Shown: positions 12,796 through 17,086 of the stretch, piece by piece
Layout: the number at the start of each line of letters is the position of its first letter
How positions within the stretch are numbered: the stretch's first letter is position 1
Source of the DNA: a virus
Virus record (IMG/VR): IMGVR_UViG_3300042484_000208
Location: 1 to 34,620 of that record
Reading direction: 5' to 3' (one strand)
DNA length: 34,620 bases
Program-made: the position numbers and the translations under genes
The notes under the pieces: model-generated
Seen by the model: only the letters and a program-made list of their open reading frames with translations
The model's database searches: none
What the model was told of the DNA's origin: nothing

Positions 12796-13803
12796 ATGAA
12801 ATTGCCCGAGCCAATGAATACCATAACAAACCTGATTGACCAATACCACAAAGCGCAGAGCGAGCGGCCCCGCCCGCACATGGGTTGCAGCGCCCTTGGC
12901 CACCCTTGTGACCGCTGGTTGTGGCTGAACTTTCGCTGGGCTGTGGTGGAAGAGTTTGAAGGCCGCATCTTGCGCCTGTTCCGTCGCGGCCAGAACGAGG
13001 AAGAGATTATTGTGCGCGATCTACGCAATGTCGGGATTGATATACGCTCAAGCCAAGCGCGGGTGAGTTTCGGTAGCCACGTTTCCGGTAGTCTTGACGG
13101 CATCATTGAAAGCGGTGTGCCAGAAGCGCCGACGAAGCGCCACGTTGCCGAGTTCAAGACGCATTCGAAGAAATCCTTTGACGATATGGTCAAGCATGGC
13201 GTCGAAAAGTCGAAGCCTCAACATTGGGTGCAAATGCAAGTTTATTGCCACGGCACCGACATTGACCGCGCGCTTTATGTGGCGGTTTGCAAGGACGATG
13301 ACCGGCTCCATATCGAGCGTGTGCGCTACGACGCCGACGTTGCCACCAGAGCAGTCGCGCGCGGCCAGCGCATCGCACTAGCGGATCGTATGCCAGAGCC
13401 TCTCAGCGCCGATCCTAGCTGGTATCAGTGCCGGTTCTGCGCGGCCCACAGCCTTTGCCACAAAGCAGCGCCAACTAAACAGGCCAACTGCCGCACTTGC
13501 GCGCACAGCACGGCTCTGGCTGACTCAACATGGCGCTGCGAACGGCACGATGCCGACGACATCCCGGTTGATTTCCAGCACACCGGCTGCGACGATCACA
13601 TCATCCATCCCGATTTGGTGCCGTGGCCGATGATCCCCAGCGAGGACGGGCATAGCGTCATGTGGCGCATTGGCGACCGCGTGATTGAGAATGGAGCCAA
13701 CGGCTACAAAAGCCGGGAGATACTGGCGAACCCTGACGTTTGCGGCACCGATGAGGTCGAGGAAATGAAGCGGATATTTCCTGACGCGGAGGTGATCGGA
13801 TGA
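12796..13803 (+). CDS. Cas4/RecB-like PD-(D/E)XK exonuclease with Cys clusters
   Basis: This 335-aa nuclease has the core residues D101 (SGSLDG) and E119-x-K121 (HVAEFKTHSK), the PD-(D/E)XK triad. Four cysteines suit a Cas4/AddB-type Fe-S cluster: C31 or C38 near the N-terminus, plus three in the CRFC-x5-C region at about 214-223. A further four-Cys segment (CRTC...C...GC, about 231-265) lies after the nuclease domain and probably binds zinc. It likely resects DNA ends for the Sak4-like system. The start ATG follows the GGGAGA ribosome-binding site; ATG at codon 7 is an alternative. It is the first gene of a tightly overlapping seven-gene run. Confidence 0.87.
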   Translation: MKLPEPMNTITNLIDQYHKAQSERPRPHMGCSALGHPCDRWLWLNFRWAVVEEFEGRILRLFRRGQNEEEIIVRDLRNVGIDIRSSQARVSFGSHVSGSLDGIIESGVPEAPTKRHVAEFKTHSKKSFDDMVKHGVEKSKPQHWVQMQVYCHGTDIDRALYVAVCKDDDRLHIERVRYDADVATRAVARGQRIALADRMPEPLSADPSWYQCRFCAAHSLCHKAAPTKQANCRTCAHSTALADSTWRCERHDADDIPVDFQHTGCDDHIIHPDLVPWPMIPSEDGHSVMWRIGDRVIENGANGYKSREILANPDVCGTDEVEEMKRIFPDAEVIG

Positions 13804-14102
13804 AAATGACCGGGGTCTCTGGCGTCATTAGCGCCGCGCATCATGGCAGCGATGGCGTGCTTCACGGCCATACTTGGCAAGTGATTGTGTGGTGGTACGC
13901 AAACGGAGACATTATTCTCACCGCAGATCGGAAAAAACGCTTTCTTGCTGAACATCTTAAAAGATACGATCACAATGTTTTGCCTGAAGAGTTAGCATGG
14001 GGCGAGCATTTGGCGGAAAAAATTGGGCGCGATATGCGCGCCGCCGCTGTTGATGTATCGCGCCCCTTAGAAGGCATTTATGCAAAGTGGGTGCGTGAAT
14101 GA
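13800..14102 (+). CDS. queD: QueD-like 6-carboxytetrahydropterin synthase family protein, catalytic Cys absent
   Basis: This 100-aa protein matches the QueD/PTPS fold signatures. There is ISAAHH with zinc ligand H14 or H15, the LHGHTW motif with zinc ligands H22 and H24, the YDHNVL motif (D57, H58), a WGEHLA helix and a C-terminal Glu (E91) before GIYA. QueD converts dihydroneopterin triphosphate to carboxytetrahydropterin on the way to preQ0. The Cys that QueD enzymes carry a few residues before the LHGH motif is missing (GSDGVLHGH), so the activity may differ. The start overlaps the exonuclease stop as ATGA. It is more A/T-rich than the flanking genes (23 G/C of 60 in 13921-13980), suggesting transfer. 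Confidence 0.8.
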   Translation: MKMTGVSGVISAAHHGSDGVLHGHTWQVIVWWYANGDIILTADRKKRFLAEHLKRYDHNVLPEELAWGEHLAEKIGRDMRAAAVDVSRPLEGIYAKWVRE

Positions 14103-14782
14103 CGATCCACTATCACGGAACACCAATAACGCCGGTTGCTGTCTTTATGACGATGACAGGCAAACATTTTTGCGTGTCTCATGCTCATCCGCAGGATGTG
14201 GAGCGAGCGCATAAAATCGGTCAAAGCGTTATGTTGGACAATGGCGCATTCTCAAAGTGGCGCACTGGGAAGGCAACCGATTGGGCTGCGTATTATGATT
14301 GGGCTGATTGCTGGTTGGATTACCCGACAACGTGGGCAGTTATACCGGATGAAATATCTGGCGACGAAAATGCGCAAGATTCTCTTGTATCTCAATGGCC
14401 ACATGGGGAGCGAGGTGCGCCAGTTTGGCATTTGCATGAACCTATAGATAGGGCGCTGCGCCTTCTGGATAGGTGGCCGCGCGTTTGTTTTGGCTCATCG
14501 GCTGAATATTCCTCTGTGGGCGGATTTGCTTGGAGGCGCAGAATGGATGCGACTTTTGATTCTATTTCCAAGCGTCACAAACGAACACCATGGGTGCATA
14601 TGCTGCGCGGGATGCAGTGCGCAAAATGGGGCTACCCATTTGCAAGCATTGACAGCGCTGATGTCGCCAGAAACCACAGCGGCAATAAACTGACGGCCCG
14701 TGAAATGGCTGACAGGTGGGATGCTATGCAATGCCCGCCCACCATGATTGAAATGCAGGAAGGTCTTTTCGATGCTTCGTGA
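14099..14782 (+). CDS. dpdA: DpdA-like TGT-family enzyme, putative 7-deazaguanine DNA transglycosylase
   Basis: This 227-aa TIM-barrel-type protein carries marks of the tRNA-guanine transglycosylase superfamily in its DpdA form. MLDNGAFSKW at 45-54 (D47) corresponds to the TGT active-site Asp motif SDSGGFQ. AVIPD at 80-84 (D84) and the FGSSAEY loop at 131-137 line the base pocket. SIDSADVARN at 183-192 carries the probable nucleophile D185. DpdA enzymes swap guanine for a 7-deazaguanine base in DNA. The start overlaps the QueD-like gene as ATGA. The short length fits phage DpdA variants. The tRNA-type zinc-binding Cys cluster of bona fide TGT is not seen, which argues against a tRNA enzyme. 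The A/T content is higher than that of its neighbours. Confidence 0.78.
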   Translation: MTIHYHGTPITPVAVFMTMTGKHFCVSHAHPQDVERAHKIGQSVMLDNGAFSKWRTGKATDWAAYYDWADCWLDYPTTWAVIPDEISGDENAQDSLVSQWPHGERGAPVWHLHEPIDRALRLLDRWPRVCFGSSAEYSSVGGFAWRRRMDATFDSISKRHKRTPWVHMLRGMQCAKWGYPFASIDSADVARNHSGNKLTAREMADRWDAMQCPPTMIEMQEGLFDAS

Positions 14783-16355
14783 CTATCAGCAGCGCACCAT
14801 CGACCAGCTTTACGCTTGGTTCGCGGCAGGCAACGCTGGCAACCCATGTCTGGTGCTTCCCACCGGCAGCGGCAAGAGCCACATCGTTGCGGCGCTATGC
14901 AAAGACGCCATTCAAAGCTGGCCCGAGACACGGGTCTTGATGTTGACCCATGTTCGGGAGCTTATCAGCCAGAATGCCGCCAAGATGCGGGAACACTGGC
15001 CCAACGCGCCGATGGGGATTTATTCTGCTGGGTTAAATCGCAAGGTGCTGGGCGAGCCGATCACGTTTGCCGGAATCCAATCGGTGCGGACAAAGGCGCA
15101 ACAGATCGGTCATGTCGATCTTGTCATCATCGACGAATGCCACCTTGTCAGCCACAAGGACGAAGGCGGCTACCGGGTGCTGTTGGCTGATCTGCTTGCC
15201 ATTAATCCGGCGCTGCGCGTGGTGGGCCTGACGGCTACGCCATACCGGCTGGGGCATGGCCTCATCACCGACGCGCCCGCTTTATTCCACGCCCTGATCG
15301 AGCCGGTCTCAATTGAGGAACTGATCTATAAGGGGCATCTCTCAACGCTCCGTAGCAAGCAGTGTCAAACATCATTTGACACTAGCGGCGTTCACAAACG
15401 CGGCGGCGAATTTATCGACAGCGAGCTACAGGCGGCGGTTGATACCGAAGATAACAATCTAGCTGTTGTCTACGAAGTCATAGGGCGGGCTGGCGACCGC
15501 AAGGCATGGTTGTTCTTCTGCGCTGGCGTCCACCACGCCGAGGCTATCGCGGAGCTGCTAAACCGATATGGAATCGCGGCAGCTTGCGTGACAGGCGCAA
15601 CACCGAAGGCCGAGCGCGACAGGATTTTGACGGATTTTAAGTGCGGGAAAATCCGCGCGCTGACGAACGCCAATGTCCTAACGACTGGCTTCGACTATCC
15701 CGACATTGACCTGATCGCCATGCTGCGCCCGACGATGAGTCCGAGTTTATATGTTCAGATGGCCGGGCGCGGGATGCGGGTCAAAAGCCACACCGACCAT
15801 TGCCTCGTTCTCGACTTCGCCGGGGTCGTGGCAACGCATGGCCCGATCACCGCCATCGAACCTAGAAAGCGCCGTGGCGAAGGTGATGGCGAAGCGCCTG
15901 TGAAGGTCTGCGATGCCTGCAACGAGTTGGTGCATATCAGCGCCAAGGTCTGTCCGACTTGCGGCGAAGCCTTCCCGGCACCAGAGCCGGTGGCGTTGAC
16001 GCTGCACCACGATGACATCATGGGCGTAGAGGCGGCAGAGATGACCGTGCAAAGCTGGCAATGGAGGCGACACACCAGCCGCGCCAGTGGCAAGGATATG
16101 CTGGCGGTATCTTATTATGGTGGCCTGAGCGACCCGGCGGTGTCCGAGTATTTTCCGGTTACGCACGATGGCTATGCTGGGCAAAAGGCACTGGCGGCAG
16201 TGGCCGATATTGCGCAAAGTTCCAGAGTGGCGTTTAGTGGGGCCATCACGCTTGATGATTGGGCCGACAGGCTCAACGCTGGCGCGACACCCGCGACGAT
16301 CAACTACCGCCGCGATGGGAAGTTTTATCGTGTGCTACGGAGGGGATGGGCGTGA
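14772..16355 (+). CDS. DEAD/DEAH-box (RadD-like) superfamily 2 helicase with zinc ribbon
   Basis: This 527-aa helicase has LRDYQQRTI at the N-terminus (Q-type entry motif), Walker A LPTGSGKS at 29-36 and DECH at 121-124. GLTATPYRLG is motif III. Later come VLTTGFDYP and QMAGRGMR (motifs V and VI). A C-terminal zinc ribbon with CDAC...CPTCG lies at about 378-405. It is expected to unwind or remodel forks or recombination intermediates. The ATG at 14772 is the start; the longer frame overlaps dpdA. Its composition is GC-rich like the exonuclease, unlike the A/T-richer queD/dpdA genes upstream and the PP-loop gene downstream. Confidence 0.9.
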   Translation: MLRDYQQRTIDQLYAWFAAGNAGNPCLVLPTGSGKSHIVAALCKDAIQSWPETRVLMLTHVRELISQNAAKMREHWPNAPMGIYSAGLNRKVLGEPITFAGIQSVRTKAQQIGHVDLVIIDECHLVSHKDEGGYRVLLADLLAINPALRVVGLTATPYRLGHGLITDAPALFHALIEPVSIEELIYKGHLSTLRSKQCQTSFDTSGVHKRGGEFIDSELQAAVDTEDNNLAVVYEVIGRAGDRKAWLFFCAGVHHAEAIAELLNRYGIAAACVTGATPKAERDRILTDFKCGKIRALTNANVLTTGFDYPDIDLIAMLRPTMSPSLYVQMAGRGMRVKSHTDHCLVLDFAGVVATHGPITAIEPRKRRGEGDGEAPVKVCDACNELVHISAKVCPTCGEAFPAPEPVALTLHHDDIMGVEAAEMTVQSWQWRRHTSRASGKDMLAVSYYGGLSDPAVSEYFPVTHDGYAGQKALAAVADIAQSSRVAFSGAITLDDWADRLNAGATPATINYRRDGKFYRVLRRGWA

Positions 16356-17086
16356 GCAGAACAGTTATTTGGTATTCATGCGGAGCAGCGAGCGCAGTGG
16401 CGGCTAAACTGATACTTCGAGATGCGCCGGACGCGGTTATTGCCTATTGCGATACAGGCGCTGAACATCCCGATAACGAACGATTTATGGCGGATTGTGT
16501 GCGCTGGTTCAACGCGCCGATTACGCGCCTGTCGAACCCAGAATTTATCGACACATGGGACGTATGGGAACAGCGGCGCTATATCGCCGGTATAGCTGGC
16601 GCGCCATGCACAGGCGCACTCAAAAAACAGCCGCGCATTGCGTTTCAACAACATGATGACATTCATGTGTTTGGTTACACCAGCGACGAAACAGACCGCG
16701 CCGACCGCTTTCGTGAGCATAATTCCGATCTGCTTGTCAGCTTCCCTTTAATCGAACGTGGCATAGACAAGGCCGCTTGCCTCGCGATGGTGCAAGGCGC
16801 AGGAATTTCCTTGCCCATTATGTATGGCCTTGGCTTTCAGAACAATAATTGCATCCCATGCCCAAAGGCCACCAGTCCTAATTATTGGTCTGCAATGCGC
16901 TTGCATTTTCCGGCAGAGTTTGCGCGCATGGCGGCACTCTCTAGGGAGTTGGGAGCGCGACTGTCCCGCGTAAACGATGAGCGTATTTTTATTGATGATA
17001 TTCCTGCCGACTGGCCAACGCTCAATCCGATTGCGCCAGCCTGCGACTTTCTTTGCCACATTGCAGAACAGGATATGAAAGCATGA
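16352..17086 (+). CDS. PAPS-reductase-like PP-loop (adenine nucleotide alpha hydrolase) protein
   Basis: This 244-aa protein has a P-loop-like WYSCGAASAV at 7-16 (the SGGxDS-type PP-loop), then IAYCDTGAEHPD at 30-41. GAPCTGALKKQPR is at 83-95, VFGYTSDE at 106-113, and NNNCIPCPKATSPNYW (CxxC at 167/170) follows. This pattern is typical of a phage family related to PAPS reductase/DndC-type ATP pyrophosphatases whose substrate is unknown. The start is GTG at 16352, which overlaps the helicase stop as GTGA and has GGAGGGG 6 nt upstream; the nearby ATG at 16346 is too close to that site. QueC is also a PP-loop enzyme, but this protein lacks the QueC SGGLDS and zinc pattern. A link to the QueD/DpdA pair is inference. 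Confidence 0.82.
   Translation: MSRTVIWYSCGAASAVAAKLILRDAPDAVIAYCDTGAEHPDNERFMADCVRWFNAPITRLSNPEFIDTWDVWEQRRYIAGIAGAPCTGALKKQPRIAFQQHDDIHVFGYTSDETDRADRFREHNSDLLVSFPLIERGIDKAACLAMVQGAGISLPIMYGLGFQNNNCIPCPKATSPNYWSAMRLHFPAEFARMAALSRELGARLSRVNDERIFIDDIPADWPTLNPIAPACDFLCHIAEQDMKA

Follow-up and report, generated by a model that had tools for sequence, protein, structure and literature searches.

DpdA and the modification of phage DNA with host-fed 7-deazaguanines are already known. The closest described systems are those of Pantoea phage MED16 and Salmonella phage 7-11, members of a phage group that carries dpdA and no preQ0 genes (PMC8306585, PMC6884629). The modified nucleoside dADG accounts for ~0.13% of G in MED16 virion DNA (PMC8306585) and for ~0.02% of G in that of 7-11 (PMC6884629), and restriction enzymes whose sites contain G still cut MED16 DNA (PMC8306585). 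Richer versions are found in RHEph04, Erebus, and Cellulophaga phage phiSM, which encode FolE, QueD, QueE, and QueC.

The window analyzed here is a linear IMG/VR virus record of 34,620 bases, with portal, scaffold, and major head protein genes that we read as P22-like. It contains a 100-aa ORF, which we call mini-QueD, at 13800 to 14102 and a 227-aa ORF encoding a DpdA-like protein at 14099 to 14782, both on the plus strand and overlapping as ATGA at 14099 to 14102. Both this overlap and the residues singled out in the original prediction, H14/H15, H22, and H24 in the first gene and MLDNGAFS (D47), VIPD (D84), and IDSAD (D185) in the second, are present. The features of the locus are as follows.

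12796 to 13803, plus strand: Cas4-like exonuclease, upstream neighbor (phrog_1990, E 1.5e-95)
13800 to 14102, plus strand: mini-QueD, 100-aa tunnelling-fold (PTPS/QueD-like) protein (PF01242, AlphaFold, Foldseek, PDB profile matches)
13839 to 13871, plus strand: zinc-type histidines H14, H22, and H24 (invariant in 41/41 mini-QueD clusters)
13851 to 13853, plus strand: Asp18, where QueD has the catalytic Cys27 of CxxxHGH (Cys in only 1/41 clusters)
14061 to 14063, plus strand: Arg88, at the putative place of the substrate-anchoring Glu110 of QueD (hand alignment, last strand pair; Arg in 41/41 clusters)
14099 to 14782, plus strand: DpdA-like guanine transglycosylase, 227 aa (phrog_887, AlphaFold, VIA-align)
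14237 to 14239, plus strand: catalytic-site Asp47 of LDNGAFS (invariant in 45 homologues)
14348 to 14350, plus strand: Asp84 of VIPD (invariant in 45 homologues)
14651 to 14653, plus strand: nucleophile-type Asp185 of IDSAD (invariant in 45 homologues)
14772 to 16355, plus strand: DNA helicase, downstream neighbor (phrog_16, E 6.8e-96; order conserved in the related loci L008, L011, and L102)

MED16 and 7-11 have a lone DpdA that relies on host precursors, as the window phage probably does, and the enzymes are homologous over most of the protein. The MED16 and 7-11 DpdAs differ in their longer C-terminus and, in MED16, in the lack of an adjacent mini-QueD. Modification was measured in those two phages, while the window system is known from its sequence. 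The DpdAs of RHEph04, Erebus, and phiSM belong to the same superfamily by profile comparison and share the catalytic motifs, but where these phages encode the four-gene pathway, the window has only mini-QueD.

The 227-aa protein belongs to the TGT superfamily

The 227-aa protein matches the PHROGs family phrog_887, annotated as queuine tRNA-ribosyltransferase, with an E value of 5.4e-44. By tblastn, 103 phage records contain a homologue; Pseudanabaena phage Pam5 and Rhizobium phage RHph_N3_2 have the closest ones (63%). The MED16 DpdA is 36% identical over 96% of the protein (E 1e-28), and the 7-11 DpdA joins the family through a search with the protein of the sister locus L148 (42%). The three Asp residues of the DxGAF, xPD, and DSxD-type motifs are invariant in the 45 aligned homologues. 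Profile matches extend to RHEph04 (E 8e-10) and phiSM (E 2e-8), whose DpdAs are located in complete folE-queD-queE-queC clusters.

The AlphaFold model of the protein has a mean pLDDT of 86. In a VIA-align comparison, the best 50 matches were all TGT or TGT-like Cap10 structures (Z 13.4 to 14.5, 199 to 216 residues aligned). A Pfam scan of the protein gave no match, the Pfam TGT family PF01702 did not match the record even at E values up to 10, no TGT came up when the DpdA profile was compared with PDB by sequence alone, and the top matches of the model in plain Foldseek were weakly scoring generic TIM barrels, not TGTs. Fold membership therefore rests on VIA-align, PHROGs, and the homologues. 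Bacterial and archaeal TGTs share the TIM-barrel fold and the Asp motifs with the window DpdA but are longer (360 to 580 aa as against 227 aa), match the Pfam TGT family, and are only ~10% identical in structural alignment. On the strength of the phrog_887 match, the invariant Asp residues, the VIA-align result, the relatives, and the profile links to RHEph04 and phiSM, we call the protein DpdA-like. The proposed placement in the TGT superfamily thus held, also in the structural comparison that had been suggested for it.

Mini-QueD has a QueD fold and a probably re-made active site

The 100-aa protein matches Pfam PTPS (PF01242) at 23.6 bits, just over the GA threshold of 22.4. Its AlphaFold model (pLDDT 91.5) has strands predicted at residues 83 to 88 and 93 to 98, the best Foldseek matches are to E. 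coli QueD (TM 0.72 to 0.80), and all PDB profile matches are PTPS/QueD proteins. The tunnelling fold, the His3 zinc site, and the Asp-His dyad of QueD/PTPS-I (COG0720; E. coli QueD, 4ntk) are all present. On the other hand, the protein is ~20 residues shorter, its motif DGVLHGH fits none of the published signatures CxxxHGH (QueD), ExxHGH, and CxxxxxHGH (PMC5041015), and it scores 17.7 bits with the QueD equivalog TIGR03367, whose cutoff is 89.25. The description "QueD-like" therefore stands for the fold and the zinc histidines; by signature and by equivalog, the protein is not QueD.

A viral alignment search gave 56 loci, which were pooled with earlier loci and clustered at 85% identity into 41 mini-QueD clusters. 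The zinc ligands and Arg88 are invariant across these clusters, which reach down to ~30% identity, and D57 (40/41), H58 (39/41), Glu91 (37/41), and P89 (33/41) are conserved. The place of Cys27 is otherwise variable, holding Asp in 11 clusters, Glu in 7, and Cys in 1 (PCGVLHGH, L105 to L108). Arg88 appears to replace the QueD Glu110, a match based on manual alignment of the last strand pair because the automatic alignment left this column unresolved. In the window protein, both the catalytic Cys and the anchoring Glu of QueD are absent, a point that goes beyond the original prediction. We regard mini-QueD as a branch of COG0720 with a probably re-made active site, not described in the open-licence literature searched.

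A gene of Caulobacter phage DMCA (L002, 7708 to 8004) annotated as 6-carboxytetrahydropterin synthase lacks the QueD signature; it is a mini-QueD and probably over-annotated. DpdL, a CDG decarboxylase, was considered as a possible identity of mini-QueD; no link could be made, and phiSM instead carries a QueD-like gene that has the Cys, along with a 133-aa protein resembling QueF. A small gene upstream of the MED16 DpdA was likewise rejected as a mini-QueD, having no tunnelling-fold match.

Putative precursor-supply genes accompany many related DpdAs

The neighbors of DpdA were surveyed in 100 nonredundant loci flanked on both sides by 1.2 kb or more. Of these, 38 contain mini-QueD (10 with a canonical QueE), with YhhQ in 26 (3 with a mini-QueF-like gene), a mini-QueF-like gene in 6 (3 of them with no other partner), and canonical QueD in 1, whereas 32/100 have no recognized partner within 1.5 kb. 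Mini-QueD and YhhQ occur together in none of the 100 loci (Fisher p 3e-7); since searches with DpdA, mini-QueD, and two DNA patterns supplied the loci, these proportions carry a bias, and the p-value serves only as an indication. Members of the YhhQ family transport preQ0/preQ1 (PMC5372724), and the exclusion suggests two ways of securing the precursor, import by YhhQ or mini-QueD with or without QueE. Among cultured relatives, Pam5 and RHph_N3_2 belong to the YhhQ type and DMCA to the mini-QueD type. DpdA lies immediately downstream of mini-QueD in 12/12 loci of a search with a single mini-QueD protein, and mini-QueD usually adjoins DpdA whether QueE is present or not. The DpdAs of MED16 and SEN1 have no mini-QueD neighbor. 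The 7-deazaguanine context proposed earlier is thus borne out by co-location of DpdA with QueE, YhhQ, and mini-QueD.

Sister phages (L007 to L011 and L064 to L073) encode within the cassette, as had not been foreseen, a QueE of their own with the motifs Cx14CxxC, QGEG, and TGGEP, upstream of mini-QueD and overlapping or adjoining it. Against the TIGR04508 cutoff of 240, the L007 protein scores 240.6 and two others fall just short at 233 to 237. The order SSB-like protein, exonuclease, QueE, mini-QueD, DpdA, helicase is common to L008, L011, and L102. In the window, this order recurs minus QueE, which is missing exactly at the sister position between exonuclease and mini-QueD; here the exonuclease stop overlaps the mini-QueD start, and a search of the window for a hidden QueE found none. 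QueE and mini-QueD accompany two types of DpdA, ~40% (L068 and L128) and ~88% identical to that of the window, and since the pair occurs beside a DpdA only ~40% identical, it behaves as a supply module.

As originally reported, no FolE, QueE, or QueC was found in the record. The accompanying idea of host supply agrees with bacterial genomes in which a related DpdA locus occurs: FolE was found in 3/3 and full-length QueC in 8/9. The exception is a Devosia MAG with YhhQ beside its DpdA; the L079 genome, with QueC and also a YhhQ next to DpdA, shows that this rule is a loose one. QueE was recognized by TIGR04508, a model covering one QueE type only, in 1/3 such genomes.

Several other genes recur in these neighborhoods. 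The mini-QueF-like proteins (~80 to 110 aa, CPxD ... E ... HxG; L005 8675 to 8914, L015 7768 to 8001, L053 4465 to 4713, L057 7675 to 8004, L088 2771 to 3004, L092 2759 to 3004) adjoin DpdA and resemble QueF by eye (CPV, FHE), with no Pfam match. PAPS-reductase/PP-loop type genes, distantly of the QueC superfamily, lie near or overlap DpdA in the window (16307 to 17086, phrog_424), L005 (7171 to 8001), and L061 (6943 to 8001). A conserved protein of ~85 aa (GGLEPRFIIERxDGxPI...VLDFSGADP) is found near DpdA and YhhQ in L003 (8681 to 8941), L002 (8726 to 8980), and L088 (2518 to 2763).

Proposed function and alternatives

We consider it quite probable that the pair is a 7-deazaguanine DNA-modification cassette, in which DpdA inserts a host-derived base and mini-QueD feeds the supply. 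The TGT fold, the three conserved Asp residues, the homology to phages with dADG, and the co-location with QueE, YhhQ, and mini-QueD are observed; activity on the DNA of the window phage, the identity of the inserted base, and what mini-QueD catalyzes are inferred. By analogy with TGT, a catalytic Asp of DpdA would attack a target guanosine of the DNA at its sugar and expel guanine, and the enzyme would then accept a free 7-deazaguanine base made by the host FolE, QueD, QueE, and QueC. Mini-QueD, most simply a divergent QueD-type enzyme, would raise CPH4, which the host QueE would convert to CDG; sister phages would contribute their own QueE from the same operon.

That mini-QueD performs the QueD step has about an even chance. 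Next to a QueE, catalysis of the QueD type is the most economical reading, but a protein missing the QueD Cys and Glu may be incapable of the step, and their loss leaves real room for another reaction. Action on a 7-deazaguanine base or as a partner of DpdA is somewhat less probable, and a role without catalysis is improbable.

The modification of the phage DNA is probably sparse, and its benefit may therefore be site-specific instead of a general resistance to restriction. The protection from restriction first proposed was overstated: MED16 DNA remains open to enzymes with G in their sites, and dADG in MED16 and 7-11 is a trace. Strong protection is unsupported.

An account in which mini-QueD works with DpdA, either altering the 7-deazaguanine, as a free base or once inserted (CDG or preQ0 might, for instance, be converted to an amide or be decarboxylated), or serving as a subunit of a DpdA complex, is unlikely as an explanation of the pair, even though the active site lends it weight: Cys27 and Glu110 are lost, yet H14, H22, H24, and R88 are invariant, D57-H58 nearly so, and E91 conserved, as in a pocket kept but altered. 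MED16 and 7-11 have dADG though no known amide-forming gene has been reported there (PMC8306585, PMC6884629), and the usual adjacency of mini-QueD and DpdA, independent of QueE, would suit a DpdA partner. The account sits poorly, however, with the dADG of MED16, made with no mini-QueD beside DpdA, with the similar arrangement in SEN1, and with QueE and mini-QueD moving as a unit between DpdA types, like a supply pair.

It is quite unlikely that the DpdA-like protein acts on tRNA, so that the phage would alter host queuosine and not its own genome. Two family members, from MED16 and 7-11, have 7-deazaguanine in virion DNA, the window protein is far shorter than TGT and without a PF01702 match, and dpdA of phage 9g, a more distant relative, failed to complement a tgt deletion (PMC6884629). 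Against this, a tRNA target would fit the TGT fold of the model, the MED16 DpdA was grouped by its authors with bacterial TGT homologues (PMC8306585), and YhhQ and QueE as neighbors would serve tRNA-Q as well.

Finally, decay of the cassette, with mini-QueD a QueD relic and a pair that no longer matters, would account for the lost QueD signature residues and the absence of QueE from the window but is highly improbable given zinc ligands and an Arg88 invariant over 41 clusters that reach down to ~30% identity, the tight ATGA coupling, and mini-QueD ORFs that are continuous in all sister phages examined.

Many related DpdA genes change frame

A second feature of the family concerns DpdA itself. 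Its coding region carries on in another frame at 60 related loci, which form 29 clusters at 90%, always by a +1 shift and always with an in-frame TTT followed by C at the junction (60/60 for each). Three sites are used: in 18 clusters ATG_TTT_CGA before D47, in 10 clusters CCN_TTT_CGC/CGT/CAC/CAT ahead of the nucleophile motif, and in L171 CCC_TTT_CTA. Positions among the 60 loci include L113 5465, L114 5465, L118 1067, L125 5408, L148 10259, L154 816, L172 ~840, L174 ~1340, and L171 ~2290. The zero frame after the first site usually stays open for 137 to 198 codons; in one locus it stops after 3. In L132 (5031 to 5759), Glu occupies the place of the catalytic Asp47 (MYENGE), and a late frame change is also present.

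Selection has to be considered here, as 43/60 split loci were fetched with DNA patterns containing TTTCG. The same +1 TTT_C rule holds in the 17/60 reached by protein searches (L113, L114, L117 to L119, L125, L132, L136, L167 to L169, and L171 to L176), including L132, L171, and L175, whose sites lie outside both DNA patterns. Conversely, matches to the patterns were split DpdA genes in 20/20 cases for the first and 24/28 for the second. Other homologous ORF pairs in 25 split-DpdA loci were continuous in 225 cases and split in 1, so the frame change is particular to DpdA. The first motif was also searched for in 385 genomes from the class to which the Bosea genome belongs; none was found, and no bacterial genome of that set thus backs it.

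A precedent exists in influenza PA-X, where tRNA-Phe slips +1 from UUU to UUC at UCC_UUU_CGU (PMC3498833). Judged by conservation, the pattern looks like recurrent programmed +1 frameshifting in sister DpdA genes. At the corresponding places, the window gene runs on without a frame change (ATG TTG GAC and CCA TTT GCA). Taking both genes together, we think it likely that this is a DNA-modification system combining an undescribed, re-made mini-QueD with a DpdA that in many sister phages becomes active only via a programmed +1 frameshift on UUU_C, at three places at or near the catalytic motifs, and that the window version is ungated.

Implications

The open-licence literature searched contained no account of the mini-QueD branch, its QueE operon, or the exclusion of YhhQ. 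For the questions of precursor source and final base in lone-DpdA phages, mini-QueD provides a named and directly testable partner gene. Deposits annotated as 6-carboxytetrahydropterin synthase without the signature, as in phage DMCA, call for correction. If the frame change is programmed, it would be a rare case of +1 frameshifting among viruses of bacteria, and one enzyme would have three such sites. Such frameshifting would ration DpdA, whose measured product in relatives is a trace only, and could explain why the modification stays at that level.
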